Source of the DNA: Bacteroidales bacterium
Lineage (GTDB): Bacteria; Bacteroidota; Bacteroidia; Bacteroidales; P3
Direction of reading: 5' to 3'
DNA length: 37,591 bases
Assembly: GCA_017454015.1 (NCBI GenBank)
Contig: JAFTDW010000050.1
Location: 1 to 37,591 of the forward strand
The notes under the pieces were generated by a model that worked only from the letters and a program-made list of their open reading frames with translations, had not been told where the DNA came from and did not search any database. Both the position numbers and the translations under genes were made by a program. Positions 3,776 to 37,591 of the stretch are shown here, piece after piece (the stretch's first letter is position 1; each line of letters begins with the position of its first letter).

Positions 3776-5893
3776 TTAATTGTAGGCGTGGATGCCGCCT
3801 ATAAGCAGGTTGACGCCGAAGTAGGTGATGATTACACTCATGAATGCCACAGCGCAGTAGAGGTGGAAACGGCGAGGGTCGCTGTTGACCTTCAACGACG
3901 GATGCAGCGGCAAAGAGTAGACTATGAGGGTGATGAGAGCCCACACCTCTTTGGGATCCCACGTCCAGTAGTTGCCCCACGATATGTTGGCCCACAAGGC
4001 TCCTATCACAATGCCCAGCGCCAGCAGAAAGACCGCAGGGTAGAGCAGCAGCAGTCCCAAGGAATGGAGACGAGCCACCACGTCGGGATGCCTGCCGAGA
4101 GCAAGTCCGGCAATGCCACTCATCATAAGGAAGAAGAAGAGTGCATAAGCCATCATGACAACAGCCACATGGAGGCACAGCAGCGGCGAGCTGAGCACCG
4201 GCATCAGGCTGGTCACTGGCGGGTTGCTGCCGCTCATCATGGCCACCAGCAGGCAGAAACCCATGGTGAGCATAGCCACCGGCAAGGCCGTGGTGTGGCG
4301 ACGCGACAGGGCGAGGCCGAGCAAGCCTATGGCTATGGCCATGAGGTTCATGCTGTCGAACCCTCCGGCCATAGGCACATGCCCTCCTACCACCCAACGG
4401 AGCGCAAAGAGCAGCAGGAGGAAAGCCGTGAGCAAGGCAACCCACAGCACCGACAACCAGCGCAACACGCGTGGTGACTCGATGCCACGCCCCATGCAGT
4501 AGATGGCGTAGGCAAAGAAAAGGAGCCCGAGGGTGATGCCGAGCATGGCAAGCCAGCGGCCTGTGGTGAGGGCGTTGTACACGCGCTCCGCCTTGACCCT
4601 TGCCGGCGACGGCAACACCTCGGCAGCGACCTTCCATTTCATGAGTCGTTTTCTGGCTGCGGCAGTGTAAGCAAGCTTCCACTGCTCTTGCTGAGCGAAA
4701 ACGTTCTTTTGGAAGAGACGTGTCTTGGCAAAAACCTCTTCAAGCCCCGCGTAGTCACCGCTCACCACCAGCTGCTGGCAGTAGCCCAGCTGTTTGCGGA
4801 TAAAGATATACTCATCGTCGCCCACACACAGTGGCAGCGCGTCGTTCTGGGCATACCAGCCCACCGAACCGCTGCTGTCGGCCACGGGGTAGAGCTTCAG
4901 GCCGTGACCCGAGACCAGCATCTGCACGAGGTTCTCGCTCTCCGTACGCCTCTTGGGGCTCACCTGCTGCGCAAAATCCTCCCATTCGCTGTAGTAGAAA
5001 AGGAAACCGCTGAGGAACTGCTCCGGCGTCAACCCCTCGTAGGTGGCTTTGCCTGTGAGCTTGGTGGTGAAATCCTTGGCAAAAGTCTGCAACGGACATA
5101 TACGTCCCTTGTAGAGCACATACATCTCGCCCATTGCCGAGGCTGTCTGCCTGGGTAGCGTCTGCGGGGCGGCATGGACGGCCTCGGGGAGCAGCATGGC
5201 CAGCAGCAGTGCAGCGACAAGAGGCTTGCGCCCGCCGCGAGCTTCACTCGCGGCACCAGGCACAGACGACCTGTAGTGCTTTATAGTAAGCCACAGCAGC
5301 CCCAAAAGCAGCAGCGCGTAGCCGCAGTAGGTGACGGCAATGCCCCAAGGGTCGTGCGACACACTGAGGGTGGAACGCCCCTCTTCGTCGTAGTCTTCCT
5401 GGTAGAAACGGTAGCCGTCGCGACGGTATATGTGGTTCATCGAGATGTCGAAAGAGTCGCCGCAGGCGGAGATGTGGCTCACAAAGTCCATAGGCGTATG
5501 CGTGCCCGGATAGTTCACCACCTCAAAACTCTCCAGCGTCACAGCAAACGGCAGCGGCAGGGTGTCGGCGGCATCGGTCGCAAAGAGCGACGACGTCTCG
5601 CCCTGTGCGAGCGTCATGTGCCCATGCTGGCCCACCCATGTGGTGAGCGCCCCGCCAAGCAGTATGAGCGGCACGGCGACATAGACAAGCAGCTTCTCCG
5701 GACGGTTATACAACTTGTCCTTCACTATGGCGACAATGGCAGAGAGGGCCGTCAAAGCCATCAGCACTGCAAACCACCACGAGCCGTAGTAGTGGTCGCC
5801 CACCCAACCGGCCCCGCGGTATTTCTCGAAAATGGTGCCCGCGGCCAGCACGCCGACCACAAGCACCATCATGCAAACCTTTACCTTTCTCAT
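3776..5893 (-). CDS. ccsBA: Fused ResB-CcsA cytochrome c biogenesis protein
   Basis: The product has 705 residues. The N-terminal half is ResB-like: transmembrane helices near residues 5-22, 40-58 and 72-88, a large periplasmic region, and a further helix near 193-210. The C-terminal half is CcsA-like, with about eight helices and the haem-handling tryptophan-rich motif WGNYWTWDPKEVW at 639-651. Conserved histidines occur in the helix containing LHVAVVMMAYALFF and in HPSLK near the end. System II cytochrome c synthases carry haem across the membrane and attach it to apocytochromes; fused CcsBA is the usual Bacteroidetes form. No nrf genes lie next to it here. Residues about 397-417 (NVFAQQEQWK through RKRL) are encoded by a 64-bp repeat that is also found in ileS, see separate entries. 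They look like an insertion between the periplasmic domain and the conserved LPSPARVKAERVYN segment. Confidence 0.9.
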   Translation of the reverse strand: MRKVKVCMMVLVVGVLAAGTIFEKYRGAGWVGDHYYGSWWFAVLMALTALSAIVAIVKDKLYNRPEKLLVYVAVPLILLGGALTTWVGQHGHMTLAQGETSSLFATDAADTLPLPFAVTLESFEVVNYPGTHTPMDFVSHISACGDSFDISMNHIYRRDGYRFYQEDYDEEGRSTLSVSHDPWGIAVTYCGYALLLLGLLWLTIKHYRSSVPGAASEARGGRKPLVAALLLAMLLPEAVHAAPQTLPRQTASAMGEMYVLYKGRICPLQTFAKDFTTKLTGKATYEGLTPEQFLSGFLFYYSEWEDFAQQVSPKRRTESENLVQMLVSGHGLKLYPVADSSGSVGWYAQNDALPLCVGDDEYIFIRKQLGYCQQLVVSGDYAGLEEVFAKTRLFQKNVFAQQEQWKLAYTAAARKRLMKWKVAAEVLPSPARVKAERVYNALTTGRWLAMLGITLGLLFFAYAIYCMGRGIESPRVLRWLSVLWVALLTAFLLLLFALRWVVGGHVPMAGGFDSMNLMAIAIGLLGLALSRRHTTALPVAMLTMGFCLLVAMMSGSNPPVTSLMPVLSSPLLCLHVAVVMMAYALFFFLMMSGIAGLALGRHPDVVARLHSLGLLLLYPAVFLLALGIVIGALWANISWGNYWTWDPKEVWALITLIVYSLPLHPSLKVNSDPRRFHLYCAVAFMSVIITYFGVNLLIGGIHAYN
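4642..4705 (-). repeat. 64-bp palindromic coding repeat, copy A (in ccsBA)
   Basis: Bases 4642-4705 match 17123-17186 at 63 of 64 positions; the single difference is G4695 versus A17176. The core is an inverted repeat, GCAGTG-T-AAGC-AA-GCTT-C-CACTGC (4662-4685), giving a ten-pair stem with one internal mismatch. Flanking arms CGTTTTC (4647-4653) and GAAAACG (4697-4703) are also inverted. A further shared CCATTTCA lies at 4634-4641. In ccsBA the minus strand is read in the frame giving NVFAQQEQWKLAYTAAARKR. All three minus-strand frames of the element are free of stops. Confidence 0.85.
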
Positions 5894-10330: not shown

Positions 10331-10524
10331 AACTGAGGTCATGTGGCGAGCCTGCGAACTGAGGTCATGAGCACCTATGAAATAAAAACAAGGACAGCGA
10401 ATAATACCTTGAAATCAAAATAATGAACCAAAGGTCATGAGCACCTATGAAATAAAAACAAGGACAGCGAATAAATGAGCAGCACCCGTAAAAATAAAAA
10501 CATGACAGCGAATAGCACCTATGG
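10331..10524 (+). repeat. Array A of the MSTYEIK short-ORF repeat
   Basis: This stretch holds several copies of a unit with GAGGTCATGAGCACC followed by TATGAAATAAAAACA and AGGACAGCGAATAA. Full units have their ATG at 10367 and 10437, a variant at 10475, and partial units (GAGGTCATG only) at 10322 and 10336. Units read as tiny frames: 10367-10423 gives MSTYEIKTRTANNTLKSK, 10437-10478 gives MSTYEIKTRTANK, and 10475-10588 gives a 37-residue variant that runs through the terminator. Bases 10331-10410 match 37414-37493 at 79 of 80 positions. No regular spacers are present, so this is not a CRISPR array. Confidence 0.8.
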
Positions 10525-10567
10525 AATAAAAAGAAGCCACCTGCGGAGCAGTTGCTCCGCAGGTGGC
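10525..10567 (-). terminator. Strong rho-independent terminator
   Basis: Perfect inverted arms GCCACCTGCGGAGCA (10536-10550) and TGCTCCGCAGGTGGC (10553-10567) form a 15-bp stem with a 2-nt loop. On the minus strand the stem is followed by TTCTTTTTATT. It lies 26 bp after the stop of the PepSY-like gene (10594), so it ends that transcript. Confidence 0.9.
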
Positions 10568-14395: not shown

Positions 14396-17300
14396 CTAAC
14401 TGCGGCAGACGAGCACTTTGGCGTTCTGGCCGTCGAGGATTTCCACCTCCTGTGCCTCGGGGGCGTCAATGGTGTCGGCAAGGGTGAAGTCGGTGCAGAG
14501 TATCTCGGTGCAGATGTAATCCTTGTAGACCTCCACGGCGTGGTTCCACACACCGCCCTGGAGGGTTACCTTGATGCGGTCGGTCACGTCGAACGACTCT
14601 TTGCGAATGTTCTGTATACGGTTGACTATCTCGCGTGCCATGCCCTCGTCGCGCAGCTCGGGGGTGATGTTGATGTCGAGCGCCACGGTGACGGTGCCCT
14701 CGTTGGCAACCACCCACCCGGCAATATCCTGCGTGGCAATGGTCACGTCGTCGGGCGTGAGGGTGACGCTCTGCCCCTCCACGGTGAGCTGGCAGTCGTT
14801 GCCGGCTTCGAGGCTGCTTATCTGCTCTTGCGTGAGGGCAGCCACCGACACGGCTATGGCTTTCATTATCTTGCCGTAGCGCGGACCGAGGGTCTTGAAG
14901 TTGGGCTTGATATTCTTGACCAGCAAGTTGTTGTCGCTGCCTATAAGCTCCACCTCCTTGACATTGAGCTCGGAGCATATAAGGTGCTGCACCTTCTGGA
15001 TTTGCTGGCGCATCTCGTCGCCTGTGACAGGCAGCATGATTTTGGCCAACGGCTGACGCACGCGTATGTTGCTGCGCTTGCGCAGCGACAATCCCATGGA
15101 GCATATCTGCTGGGCCAGCTGCATGCGCTGCTCCAGAGCCTTGTCGACAAGCTGCGGATTGACCACCGGGAACGAGAGATGGTGTACCGACTGCACATTG
15201 TGGCGGTGGGTAGCCTCGTTGAGGTCGAGGAAGAGACGCTCGCTGAAGAACGGCGCTATGGGGGCCATGAGGCGGCTGAGGGTCTCCAGGCAGGTGTAGA
15301 GGGTCTGGTAGGCCGAGAGTTTGTCGTCCGACATGTCGCCTTTCCAGAAGCGGCGGCGGCAGAGACGCACGTACCAGTTGCTGAGGTAGGCGTCGACAAA
15401 CTCCTGCACGGCGCGTCCCGCGCGGGTGGGCTCGTAGTCGGAGAGTGCCGCGTCGACGGTGGCTGTGAGGGTGTTGAGCTCGGAGAGTATCCAGCGGTCT
15501 ATCTCGGGGCGCTGGGCATGCGGCACGTCGGGAGCCGAGTAGTCGAACCCGTCGATATTGGCGTAGAGGGCAAAGAAGCTGTAGGTGTTGTAGAGGGTGC
15601 CGAAAAGCTTGCGGCGCACCTCGTCGACGCCGTCGAGGTCGAACTTGAGGTTGTCCCAGGGCTGGCTGTTGGTTATCATGTACCAGCGTGTGGCGTCGGG
15701 GCCGTACTTGGCTATGGTCTCGAAGGGATCCACGGCGTTGCCGAGGCGCTTGGACATCTTGTTGCCGTTCTTGTCGAGCACCAGGCCGTTGCTCACCACG
15801 TTCTTAAAGGCCACGCTGTCGAAGCACATGGTGGCAATGGCGTGGAGGGTGTAGAACCAGCCACGCGTCTGGTCGACGCCTTCGGCGATGAAGTCGGCGG
15901 GGAACTGGCTCTCCTTGAGGTCGCCGCCCATGTAGTGTATCTGTGCGTATGGCATGGCGCCGCTGTCGAACCACACATCGATAAGGTCGGGTTCGCGGCG
16001 CATGGGCTTGCCCGAGGGGGAGCAAAGCACCACATCGTCGATATAGGGGCGATGGAGGTCGAAAGTGTCGGCGGCGTAGGGGTTGGAGGACATGAAGCCG
16101 GCCTTCACGGACTTCTCTATCTCGCCGCGCAGCTCGGCCACAGAGCCAATGCATAGCTCCTCTTTGCCGTCCTCGGTGCGCCAGATAGGCAGCGGGGTGC
16201 CCCAGTAGCGGCTGCGGCTGAGGTTCCAGTCCACAATGTTCTCAAGCCAGTTGCCGAAGCGGCCCGAGCCTGTGGCCTCGGGTTTCCAGTTGATGGTGCG
16301 GTTGAGCTCCGCCATACGCTCCTTGTAGGCCGTGGTGCGGATGAACCAGCTGTCGAGGGGATAGTAAAGCACGGGCTTGTCGGTGCGCCAGCAATGGGGG
16401 TAGCTGTGGGTGTGCTTCTCGCTGCGCAGCAACTTGCCCTGCTCCTTGAGCATCACCACAAGCTCCACGTCGAGCGATATGTCTTTGTCGCTCTTTGCGG
16501 GGTCGTAGGCGTTCTTGACGAATTTGCCTGCATACTGGGAATAGAGCTGCACGTCGACATTCTCCTTGACCCAGGCGGCGTCGAGGTCGGCGATGTTCCA
16601 GAACTTGCCGGTGCGGTCGACCATGGGGGCTTGCTTGCCGCTCTGGTCGTAGAGCAGCAGGTCGGCGATGCCGGCCTTCTTGGCCACACGGGCGTCGTCG
16701 GCGCCGAAGGTGGGGGCTATATGCACTATGCCGGTACCGTCGTCGGTGGTGACATAGTCGCCGGTGATGACGCGGAATGCCTCGTCGGCGTGCGCCGTGC
16801 GGTGCGTGCCTTCGGCACTGTTCACCACGGTGGGTTTCACCCACGGTATAAGCTGATCATAGTAGAGGCCTTCGAGACCGGCCCCCTTGCAGCGTCCCAC
16901 TATGGTGCAGTGCTGCAGACGGCTCTTCTCGGGGGGCTCGCCTTCGGTGTAGAAGTCGCCCACACGAGCCTCGGCCATCACCACGTAGCACTCGTCGCCA
17001 GTCTGCGGATGGGTGGTTTGCAGCAACACGTAGTCGATGTTGGGGCCCACGCAGAGGGCTGTGTTCGAGGGCAGTGTCCACGGTGTGGTGGTCCATGCCA
17101 CGGCATAGACCATTTCACTGCGTGAGTCGTTTTCTGGCTGCGGCAGTGTAAGCAAGCTTCCACTGCTCTTGCTGAACGAAAACGTTGGCGAAGCACCTGC
17201 CTGCAGTCCGAAGCGTCCAAACACATCGGCGGGGGCGCAGAGCTTGAACATGGCCACGCAGGTGGTGTCCTTCACGTCGCGGTAGCATCCCGGCAGGTTG

Positions 17301-17884
17301 AGCTCATGGCTCGAAAGGCCGGTGCCAGCGGCAGGGCTGAAAGGCTGTATGGTGTAGCCCTTGTAGAGCAGACCCTTGTCGTAGAGCTTCTTGAGCAGGT
17401 GCCAAAGGGTCTCTATATAATTGTTGTCGAAAGTTATGTAGGGGTGCTCGAGGTCTATCCAGTAACCCATCTGGCGAGTGAGCTCGTCCCAGAGGTCTTT
17501 GTATTTGAGCACCTCGGTGCGGCAGGCGCGGTTGTAGTCGTCCACGCTAATCTTCTTGCCAATATCCTCCTTGGTGATGCCGAGGGCTTTCTCCACGCCG
17601 AGCTCCACGGGCAGTCCGTGGGTGTCCCAGCCAGCCTTGCGCTCCACCTGGTAGCCCTTACTGGCTTTGTAGCGACAAAAGAGGTCTTTTATGGTGCGTG
17701 CCATCACATGATGGATGCCGGGCTTGCCGTTGGCCGACGGGGGGCCGTCGTAGAAGACATAGCTCGGACGCCCTTCGGCAAGTTTCTGTCCTTTGCCAAA
17801 TGCATCGGTATCCTCCCAGTACTTACGGATTTCGGTACCGATGGCAGTAAGATCAAGTTGCTTATATTCTTTGTATTTCATCAT
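14396..17884 (-). CDS. ileS: Isoleucyl-tRNA synthetase, with repeat-derived insert
   Basis: The 1162-residue product is a class I synthetase that charges tRNA-Ile. Markers are the HIGH-type site GIHH (56-59) within PPSANGKPGIHHVMA, AWTTTPWTLPSNTALCVG at the start of the editing domain (263-280), DVWFDSGAMPYAQ, and NKMSKRLGNAVDP (KMSKS loop near 709). The C-terminal half has the anticodon-binding and zinc-less extension common in Bacteroidetes. Just before the editing domain, residues 234-254 (TFSFSKSSGSLLTLPQPEND and the next Ser) are encoded by the 64-bp element also found in ccsBA, read in a different frame. This site is a surface connecting loop, so the enzyme should tolerate it. Start: two Met codons follow each other, and the upstream permease gene overlaps by 4 bp. 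Confidence 0.96.
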   Translation of the reverse strand: MMKYKEYKQLDLTAIGTEIRKYWEDTDAFGKGQKLAEGRPSYVFYDGPPSANGKPGIHHVMARTIKDLFCRYKASKGYQVERKAGWDTHGLPVELGVEKALGITKEDIGKKISVDDYNRACRTEVLKYKDLWDELTRQMGYWIDLEHPYITFDNNYIETLWHLLKKLYDKGLLYKGYTIQPFSPAAGTGLSSHELNLPGCYRDVKDTTCVAMFKLCAPADVFGRFGLQAGASPTFSFSKSSGSLLTLPQPENDSRSEMVYAVAWTTTPWTLPSNTALCVGPNIDYVLLQTTHPQTGDECYVVMAEARVGDFYTEGEPPEKSRLQHCTIVGRCKGAGLEGLYYDQLIPWVKPTVVNSAEGTHRTAHADEAFRVITGDYVTTDDGTGIVHIAPTFGADDARVAKKAGIADLLLYDQSGKQAPMVDRTGKFWNIADLDAAWVKENVDVQLYSQYAGKFVKNAYDPAKSDKDISLDVELVVMLKEQGKLLRSEKHTHSYPHCWRTDKPVLYYPLDSWFIRTTAYKERMAELNRTINWKPEATGSGRFGNWLENIVDWNLSRSRYWGTPLPIWRTEDGKEELCIGSVAELRGEIEKSVKAGFMSSNPYAADTFDLHRPYIDDVVLCSPSGKPMRREPDLIDVWFDSGAMPYAQIHYMGGDLKESQFPADFIAEGVDQTRGWFYTLHAIATMCFDSVAFKNVVSNGLVLDKNGNKMSKRLGNAVDPFETIAKYGPDATRWYMITNSQPWDNLKFDLDGVDEVRRKLFGTLYNTYSFFALYANIDGFDYSAPDVPHAQRPEIDRWILSELNTLTATVDAALSDYEPTRAGRAVQEFVDAYLSNWYVRLCRRRFWKGDMSDDKLSAYQTLYTCLETLSRLMAPIAPFFSERLFLDLNEATHRHNVQSVHHLSFPVVNPQLVDKALEQRMQLAQQICSMGLSLRKRSNIRVRQPLAKIMLPVTGDEMRQQIQKVQHLICSELNVKEVELIGSDNNLLVKNIKPNFKTLGPRYGKIMKAIAVSVAALTQEQISSLEAGNDCQLTVEGQSVTLTPDDVTIATQDIAGWVVANEGTVTVALDINITPELRDEGMAREIVNRIQNIRKESFDVTDRIKVTLQGGVWNHAVEVYKDYICTEILCTDFTLADTIDAPEAQEVEILDGQNAKVLVCRS
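17123..17186 (-). repeat. 64-bp palindromic coding repeat, copy B (in ileS)
   Basis: This is the second copy of the element at 4642-4705 (63/64 identical). Here the minus strand is read one base shifted relative to ccsBA, giving TFSFSKSSGSLLTLPQPEND. The shared CCATTTCA also occurs just outside it (17110-17117) but is separated from the element by five extra bases (CTGCG). The inner stem (GCAGTG/CACTGC around AAGC-AA-GCTT) is intact. Confidence 0.85.
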
Positions 17885-21293: not shown

Positions 21294-21365
<72 letters not shown>

Positions 21366-27468: not shown

Positions 27469-27499
27469 AGTGAATTCTATTAATTTTTATGATTCCCCA

Positions 27500-27558
27500 T
27501 TTATTCGCTGTCCGGGTTTTTATTGTACGGCGGCTCACGACATTAGTTCATAGCCTCG
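27500..27558 (-). repeat. Diverged MSTYEIK-type repeat, single copy
   Basis: Read on the minus strand this matches the array unit over 58 bases without gaps, 44 of 58 identical by eye. It begins CGAGGCTATGAACTAATGTC and ends GGACAGCGAATAAA. The short frame from the GTG at 27536-27538 reads MSRRTIKTRTANK and goes on to a 24-residue peptide. In the conserved IKTRTAN core both base changes relative to the arrays are silent (ACA to ACC, AGG to CGG). Confidence 0.6.
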
Positions 27559-30193: not shown

Positions 30194-30240
30194 CGATTTT
30201 TTTGTCACTTATACAACACACATTGAGAATATTTAACAGA

Positions 30241-30347
30241 TAACCTCTATAAATAGCCTCGGAGAGGCTAAACGCACGAAGTGCTAATAACACCATACGC
30301 AGTGTGGTGCAGCATGATAAGAGAGTAAATGCATCTCGAAGAGGTGC
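30241..30347. repeat. REP-like cluster of four consecutive hairpins, copy 2
   Basis: Four short hairpins follow each other, each with a 3-nt loop. The first is TAGCCTC-GGA-GAGGCTA (30254-30270) and the second is GCAC-GAA-GTGC (30274-30284). The third is CACCATAC-GCA-GTGTGGTG (30291-30309, one G-T pair) and the fourth is GCATCTC-GAA-GAGGTGC (30331-30347, one G-T pair). The leading TAACCTCTATAAATAG matches the element at 5929. The cluster lies between the fimbrillin-like gene and the antitoxin-like gene. It looks like a compound REP (BIME-like) element. Confidence 0.8.
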
Positions 30348-37000: not shown

Positions 37001-37040
37001 TTTTTTTGCGACCCTTTCCTCGAGGGCTTTGATGTAGCAT

Positions 37041-37244
37041 GGCTTGGCAGGTCTTCTGACTTTCCTGCTTGCTTCCCCATGCCTTCCCACGCGCCTATGG
37101 CGGCGCACAGTGGCTTGTTTGCTGCTTGGGGAGCTTTGTCTTGCAGGATTACAGCAGCGGGACTGTTGCCGATTTTCACGGCATTCCCTTTTGACACACA
37201 GAGGGTTGCAGCACTTTCACAACTCTCTACACGGTGACCAAACC
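37041..37244 (-). promoter_or_regulatory. Cobalamin (B12) riboswitch
   Basis: Read on the minus strand, the conserved core AGGGAATGCCGTGAAAATCG is followed by GGCAACAGTCCCGCTGCTGT, the B12-box region. The 3' side has AAGTCAGAAGACCTGCC, the conserved J6/3-P3 end. The closing stem P1 can be traced: GGTTTGG (37238-37244) pairs with CCAAGCC (37041-37047) with one G-T pair. The promoter -7 box is 6 bp upstream, so P1 starts at or near the first transcribed base. About 40 nt separate the aptamer from the btuB start. That stretch contains CCTCGAGG and the A8 run and may hold the expression platform. High cobalamin should lower btuB-btuG expression. Confidence 0.93.
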
Positions 37245-37249
37245 GAATG

Positions 37250-37283
37250 CAAAGATACGAAAAAAAACTAAATGATTACTAAA
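37250..37283 (-). promoter_or_regulatory. Promoter of the btuB-btuG operon
   Basis: The minus strand has TATCTTTG at 37250-37257 (exact -7 consensus). TTTA (37280-37283) lies 22 bp upstream as a weak -33 element. The REP-like element at 37285 abuts the -33 side. Confidence 0.7.
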
Positions 37284-37284
37284 G

Positions 37285-37332
37285 GTGACATCTAAAAATA
37301 GCCTCGGAGAGGCTAACTCTCAATTGTTGAGA
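37285..37332. repeat. REP-like double-hairpin element, copy 3
   Basis: The element starts GTGACATCTAAAAATAG and then has TAGCCTC-GGA-GAGGCTA (37299-37315, identical in stem to the 30254 hairpin). TCTCAA-TTG-TTGAGA (37318-37332) occupies the position of hairpin 2 in the other copies, with a different stem. It separates the btuB promoter from repeat array B. Confidence 0.7.
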
Positions 37333-37370
37333 CCCGCGAACTTGTTGAGCGAACCCCGCACAAGGAACCA

Positions 37371-37591
37371 TTGGTCATGAGCACAGATGAAATCAAAAAT
37401 ATGTACAGCGAATAACTGAGGTCATGTGACGAGCCTGCGAACTGAGGTCATGAGCACCTATGAAATAAAAACAAGGACAGCGAATAATACCTTAAAATAA
37501 AAAATAATGAAATGAGCAGCACCTATGAAATAAAAACATGAATAGCGAATAACTGAGGTCATGAGCACCTATGAAATTTAAAACATGAATA
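37371..37591 (+). repeat. Array B of the MSTYEIK short-ORF repeat, running off the window
   Basis: Units with ATG at 37377 (MSTDEIKNMYSE), 37450 (MSTYEIKTRTANNTLK), 37512 (MSSTYEIKT) and 37561 (MSTYEI), plus a partial GAGGTCATGTGACGAGCC at 37419, fill the right end. Bases 37414-37493 match array A (10331-10410) at 79 of 80 positions. The 3' stop codons differ between units, so the peptides are not all equal. The array continues beyond the window. Confidence 0.8.

Follow-up and report, generated by a model that had tools for sequence, protein, structure and literature searches.

The window analysed here, a stretch of 37,591 nucleotides, comes from a Bacteroidales draft genome that is 94% complete and belongs to the genus of Candidatus Colimorpha. 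Two genes on its minus strand, ccsBA and ileS, each contain a copy of a short palindromic element (Table 1). An earlier note had reported that positions 4642–4705 and 17123–17186 are identical at 63 of 64 bases and are read in different frames. We confirmed the identity, and the translations of both genes place the two segments in shifted frames. The 64-bp match is a portion of a 72-nt unit common to ccsBA and ileS, which is comprised of AACGTTTTCG, a hairpin, AGAAAACG and a tail. The ccsBA copy consists of a 59-nt part with the A core and the tail ACTCATGAAATGG, and the bases right after it (4633–4631, minus strand) are AAG. In the ileS copy an extra CGCAG precedes TGAAATGG, near the 3′ end, and the copy is read one frame over relative to that in ccsBA. 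When folded as DNA, the two coding strands gave z-scores of −2.6 and −2.2 (2/200 and 7/200 shuffles equal or better), and the opposite strand, folded for the ccsBA copy alone, gave −1.9 (11/200 shuffles equal or better).

Table 1 Features of the window.
Feature	Position	Strand	Description
ccsBA	3776..5893	minus	ResB-like and Cytochrom_C_asm domains (Pfam), with the element between the two matches
Palindromic element	4634..4705	minus	72-nt unit in frame in ccsBA, reads NVFAQQEQWKLAYTAAARKRLMKW, residues 397–420
Second dispersed short repeat	10331..10532		GGTCATGAGCACC...GACAGCGAATA
ileS, isoleucyl-tRNA synthetase	14396..17884	minus	tRNA-synt_1 and Anticodon_1 domains (Pfam)
Palindromic element	17110..17186	minus	72-nt unit plus 5 extra bases, inside ileS
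tRNA gene	21294..21365	minus	Rfam match
Second dispersed short repeat	27498..27544		Inverted
34-base repeat	30238..30271		Inverted repeat TAGCCTCGGAGAGGCTA, possibly terminator-like
Cobalamin riboswitch	37029..37257	minus	Rfam match
34-base repeat	37283..37316		88% alike to the copy at 30238..30271
Second dispersed short repeat	37367..37582		

We searched the host genome for further copies. A 74-base query gave 58 matches, while the 3′ end of the unit matched at 71 places (up to 3 mismatches, 0 for a reversed control pattern) and the 5′ end at 121 places (up to 2 mismatches, 3 for the reversed control). Across the 389,190 bases surrounding these matches we counted no fewer than 118 copies, distributed over 91 sites, where copies separated by gaps below 40 bases were merged into one site; the earlier note had known of two. 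The count of 118 is a lower bound that covers 100 of the 121 5′-end places and copies retaining the 5′ end, and it takes in one overlapping inverted pair (C27). Since the copy number is this high, a chance match between the two founding segments is excluded. At least 11 copies are identical over 75 nt (15 of 95 candidates were scored), and the flanks differ between separate sites, which suggests that the element spread recently in the host genome; the earlier note had taken the near-identity of the first two copies to imply recent spread or gene conversion. More than one unit is present at 20 of the 91 sites, and in 19 of these 20 all units share a single, head-to-tail orientation. Several copies sit at contig ends, so that the element may help to fragment assemblies of genomes like this one.

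The head-to-tail copies define the boundaries of the unit, in the order AACGTTTTCG, core, AGAAAACG and tail, after which AAC appears again. The spacing between starts on the same strand was most often 72 nt in the host genome (13 cases), followed by 86 (5 cases), 76 (4) and 87 (2), with single cases of 83 and 122, the latter spanning an interrupted copy; tandem units in other Bacteroidales are spaced by 72 to 88 nt (12 cases). In the uninterrupted copies (100 of 118), the part that runs as far as AGAAAACG measures 59 nt in 72 cases and 69–70 nt in 28, and the tail resembles ACTCATGAAATGG in 62 (T1) and AGGGTTGCGAAGAAACC in 38. The left junction is AAC in 90 of the 100, and the right junction following a T1 tail is AAC in 52 of 62 and AAG in 6 of 62. 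Further to the left there is only a slight bias (A at −5 in 28/52 and at −4 in 26/52, C or G at −1 in 41/52), as counted from a fuzzy pattern that misplaces a few starts. The general unit, 72–88 nt in length, comprises AA, CGTTTTCG, NTAAGCC, a variable bulged hairpin, GGCGAGAAAACGA, a short variable hairpin and AA, and the commonest core in the host genome deviates from the GCC/GGC part of this arrangement. With regard to the terminal inverted repeats, the target-site duplication and the autonomous parent element of a MITE, we observed subterminal CGTTTTC/GAAAACG and AA at each junction, and saw no parent near the copies at 80 loci.

Eleven of the 91 sites lie within open reading frames that we judged to be real genes by length and homology. 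The genes with the element are ccsBA, ileS and those for a GH92 protein, a protein that has both GH3 and beta-lactamase-family parts, NAD synthase, a UvrD-type helicase, two pseudouridine synthases (one aligns to RluD, the other has an S4 domain), an acyltransferase, a CHU_C-domain protein and one protein that is metalloprotease-like by eye and has no Pfam match. Pfam was applied to all 11 element-bearing gene products and named 10 of them. The element lies inside a Pfam match in the GH92 protein, the RluD-like protein and the acyltransferase, and between matches in CcsBA, the GH3 protein and the helicase.

The 11 genic copies use sense frame 0 six times, sense frame 2 three times, sense frame 1 once (ileS) and an antisense frame once (GH92). 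This usage agrees with the 72-nt consensus, because the latter is open in sense 0, sense 2 and antisense 0, with sense 1 closed by the TGA of ACTCATGA. In the ileS copy, CGCAG lies directly before this TGA and shifts it out of frame. The proposal that the coding strand is open in all three frames holds for the 64-bp segment but fails for the full 72-nt consensus, where the TGA closes one sense frame. We also considered openness of all frames as a general design and rejected it: 80 distinct units from across the order had a mean of 2.55 open frames out of six, modestly above the 2.31 of shuffled units (3/200 shuffle sets reach it), and sense frame 2 was closed in 80/80. The narrower idea of a DNA element that survives within genes is upheld by the 11 genic sites, which involve several frames and unrelated genes. 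For the remaining 80 of the 91 sites no surrounding gene could be demonstrated. Genomes of this kind normally consist largely of coding DNA, so the element seems to avoid genes.

Comparison with relatives reveals sites that lack the element. In CcsBA, the aligned segments of all 29 genus relatives span the site and lack the 24 residues, and the flanking matches abut to the base in several of them, in accordance with the clean insertion anticipated in the earlier note. For IleS the same comparison was less sharp: the segment, conserved blocks included, is longest here, at 94 residues against 55–79 in 29 relatives, but it is too length-variable to define an exact empty site. The RluD-like protein aligns to the solved RluD structure up to residue 106 and resumes at residue 133, over which the structure runs from 110 to 112, and the element forms residues 108–131. 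Similarly, a stretch of 48 residues in the GH92 protein corresponds to 19 in a solved homologue, and 24 of the 48 derive from the element. In the isolate Hoylesella loescheii An865, two tandem 81-nt units are in frame in an O6-methylguanine methyltransferase gene, between the two Pfam matches of the protein. The element accounts for odd insertions of 24–27 residues in enzymes, or 54 residues where two units are in tandem. At the DNA level, pBUN2-type Bacteroides plasmids carry a 78-nt unit in an IS1380-like gene, inserted at AA^C relative to another copy of the gene that is without the unit. This plasmid gene provides the one empty site at the DNA level, the rest being at the protein level, and no insertion polymorphism was seen among strains of a single species. 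An assembly artefact, to which a draft genome with copies at contig ends might be prone, has a negligible probability, given the separate sites with distinct flanks, and is refuted by the presence of the element in the isolate genome of H. loescheii An865 and in records of complete circular Bacteroides plasmids.

The element is widely distributed. A pattern with exact ends and a free core matched 28 of 120 genus genomes (control, 0), and a scan of a genome collection with the architecture pattern gave at least 112 stretches. The 80 matches listed include Prevotella, Prevotellaceae, Hoylesella, Alistipes, Phocaeicola, Paludibacteraceae, Bacteroidaceae and Candidatus Colimorpha among named Bacteroidales, and the rest are labelled as unclassified Bacteroidales or Bacteroidetes, apart from one titled only uncultured bacterium and another titled bacterium P3; no other phylum is named among these 80. 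Candidatus Colimorpha onthohippi, a genus mate of the host, carries copies of the element. Strict copies number 1 to 70 in each of 21 carriers, with the most in the host (70) and 19 in H. loescheii. These strict counts, the genus count and the collection scan all demand exact ends and are lower bounds. In Bacteroidota genomes sampled outside the order, 0 of 389 matched; the phylum sample as a whole gave 1 match in 395, the host itself, and included only five other genomes of the order. In the genome collection, a 25-mer taken from the host core had no exact match, and the host unit likewise matched nothing among 24 genomes from the order's other families, which shows only that the host core is local. 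Since the 25-mer is absent while the architecture pattern matches widely, the flanks stay and the cores differ. Mobile replicons are also represented, with 26 plasmid records having a blastn match (in Bacteroides, Parabacteroides, Phocaeicola, Prevotella and Segatella), one match in viral contigs, and, in phage records, none to the host unit and two to the order-wide form. The pBUN2-type plasmids of Bacteroides and Parabacteroides have a single 78-nt unit in an IS1380-like transposase region (L334:3011-3088).

Judged from these sequence matches, the family spans the Bacteroidales with variable hairpins, far beyond the two copies with which we began. The earlier note knew of no such family in this order, and the literature listed by our searches, with preprints and most subscription journals outside its coverage, gave no description of one; the papers listed with the ten-base AACGTTTTCG held none of five longer motif strings.

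We then compared the structures of the units. Although the cores vary between species, the bulged hairpin that they form stays similar; the tail forms a second small hairpin with varied arms, 82 of 87 tails being able to pair over at least 3 bases. Covariation was analyzed for 24 units of the 66-nt class with distinct bodies and tails of 10–12 bases, from a set of 99 places of all classes, 40 of them of the 66-nt class. Pairing was observed in 94.2% of 667 cells, against 83.0% in shuffled alignments, and 77 cells had changed on both sides, against 24.1; 0/500 shuffles, which do not preserve relatedness among units, reached either value. Changes on both sides occurred somewhere in 14 of 28 pairs (9.5 in shuffles), and sliding the partners lowered pairing to 35–46%. 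Further pair types were not above shuffles (22 against 21.9, 285/500 reach). The outer seven pairs never vary among the 24 units, and for the small tail helix the share of paired cells is 75.8%. Because only five paired cells are G-U, we infer that the element is more likely to pair as DNA than as RNA.

Strong covariation with conserved flanks might also be found in a functional structured RNA or regulatory element under selection, for which the spread would be secondary. We regard this as very improbable, given the few G-U pairs and the following observations. Rfam at gathering score left the element unmatched in the window and in ten carrier loci, and the surroundings of the ccsBA copy had no Rfam match even at E values up to 1. 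Unrelated genes contain copies in different reading frames and also in antisense orientation, no neighbour gene is constant across 80 loci, and the number of strict copies ranges from 1 to 70 between carriers.

We propose that these units represent a new Bacteroidales family of palindromic elements that are mobile but non-autonomous, a reading to which we assign a probability of roughly 0.75. The dispersal, the precise unit boundaries, the arrays, the gain of whole units at AA with AA on either side, the empty sites, the conserved architecture and the covariation are all direct observations. In the mechanism that we envisage, a strand would fold alone into a long imperfect hairpin and a small second hairpin, and this single-stranded hairpin is probably the intermediate, on which a trans-acting recombinase would act. 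The whole unit would enter at an AA dinucleotide, in most cases AAC, so that each junction carries AA, and insertion beside an existing unit would create the head-to-tail arrays that share AAC. A copy inside a gene would be retained if it adds a net length divisible by three and is read in an open frame. That AA is the target as a general rule is suggested mostly by junctions from one genome.

The closest parallel is found in the Rickettsia palindromic elements, as the earlier note had suggested: in both cases a palindromic repeat is in frame in unrelated genes and also occurs outside genes. The Rickettsia elements are so described in PMC10969869, which gives their length as around 150 bp, against 72–88 nt for the Bacteroidales units. 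They end in CGTC according to PMC3733652. CGTC, on either strand, is found in 1 of 81 units of the host (first bases) and in 6 of 80 order-wide units, in none of these six within 8 bases of an end. The second small hairpin and the head-to-tail arrays sharing AAC are further differences. Thus, on these descriptions, the Bacteroidales family works like the Rickettsia palindromic elements but falls outside them by length and by the CGTC end. Within the Bacteroidales, BrickBuilt of Porphyromonas gingivalis is likewise a small dispersed repeat, described in PMC4596501 as a MITE that contains a 23-nt tandem minisatellite and is always intergenic; the comparison is by description.

The units also resemble REPs in being short, dispersed hairpin repeats that are now and then intragenic, as PMC3733652 reports for pseudouridine synthase and repair genes. 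CGTC repeats have been reported in Bacteroidetes among other phyla (PMC3733652). This raises the alternative that the element is of the REP/REPIN type and is moved by a RAYT, a Y1 tyrosine transposase of the IS200/IS605 kind. The Y1 transposase (PF01797) was the sole enzyme searched genome-wide, and its genes exceeded the cut-off in 40 of 59 genus genomes and in 10 of 21 element-bearing genomes, a frequency that would suit such a partner. However, the host draft, richest in strict copies of the 21 carriers, has no Y1 match, and neither do nine other carriers; four of these ten carriers have 9 to 70 strict copies. In addition, element ends occurred in 0 of 10 Y1 loci examined (around 2–3 kb each, among the matches listed). 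GTAG, on either strand, is present in 1 of 81 distinct units of the host and in 1 of 80 order-wide, and within 8 bases of the end in 0/81 and 0/80. From the search of PF01797 in the host, the 59 genus genomes and the 21 carriers, and from the 10 Y1 loci, we rejected mobilization by RAYT, and consider this alternative highly unlikely. As described, REPs of the GTAG and CGTC types are 20–40 bp long and tagged and form head-head or tail-tail dimers, with head-tail dimers rare or negligible, whereas the Bacteroidales units are 72–88 nt long with untagged ends, and 19 of their 20 multi-unit sites have a single orientation. The REP super-families are excluded by tag, length and dimer orientation, and the GTAG REPs also by the RAYT result.

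We looked for a mobilizing gene among the neighbours of the element. At 80 named loci, 1058 open reading frames (at least 80 residues, within 3 kb) gave largest clusters of 4, 3, 3 and 3 loci, none of which by eye resembled a recombinase. A phage-integrase-family gene forms a cluster of two loci, within 3 kb of copies (L225 and L283, with Pfam applied to the L283 protein). Integron attC sites are bulged single-strand hairpins with a crossover beside GTT and the core consensus GTTRRRY. The folded strand of the Bacteroidales element likewise bears bulges, and AA^C reads as G^TT on the other strand. An integron-like system, in which attC-like hairpins are inserted as single-strand cassettes at G^TT by a tyrosine recombinase, is therefore an alternative with several points in its favour: insertion at AA^C, AA at both junctions, head-to-tail arrays sharing AAC, and the integrase-family gene near copies at 2 of 80 loci. 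Nevertheless, we hold it to be unlikely, since just 26 to 29 of the 87 units from across the order have GTTRRRY at the tail end, the figure varying with the placement of that end, and the arrays seen have no cassette genes between units.

Movement may also require no dedicated enzyme, if hairpins give rise to new copies by template switching or gene conversion while DNA is replicated and repaired. Of the 72 A cores of the host, 3 carry an inverted loop and 2 are perfect palindromes. Both are changes expected from template switching when hairpins are copied, and they also suit the mobile hairpin proposed above. The tandem arrays, and the lack of a commonly linked gene at the loci surveyed, are compatible with this explanation. 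We nonetheless find it rather unlikely, because the precise unit ends at unrelated sites, the AA at the junction and the end sequences that are constant across the order suggest that the ends are recognized. A mobile family with end recognition could be taken one step further, to order-wide, protein-tolerated mobile hairpins that have their own site-specific recombination, where an undescribed recombinase inserts the folded strand whole at AA^C, with an integron-like outcome but neither cassettes nor an attC consensus. We put this forward as a doubtful, though conceivable, extension of the proposal.

Rickettsia, the best-known bearers of in-frame mobile palindromes, are hard to grow and manipulate. 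A family in Bacteroidales, with isolates among its carriers and with near-identical recent copies, would make both the movement of such elements and their tolerance by proteins testable. The effect of the Rickettsia palindromic elements on proteins is called unexplored in PMC10969869.

Finally, other repeats were encountered alongside the element. The second dispersed repeat of the window (GGTCATGAGCACC...GACAGCGAATA) has 46 matches in the 389 kb around element copies, 5 of them in the window. At seven places the palindromic element is broken up by this second repeat. Genus relatives (L057, L059, L067, L069 and L076) have another hairpin repeat, with an AGCTTGC loop and a GCGAGAGCAGAGG arm, whose core is similar to that of the palindromic element and whose ends are different.
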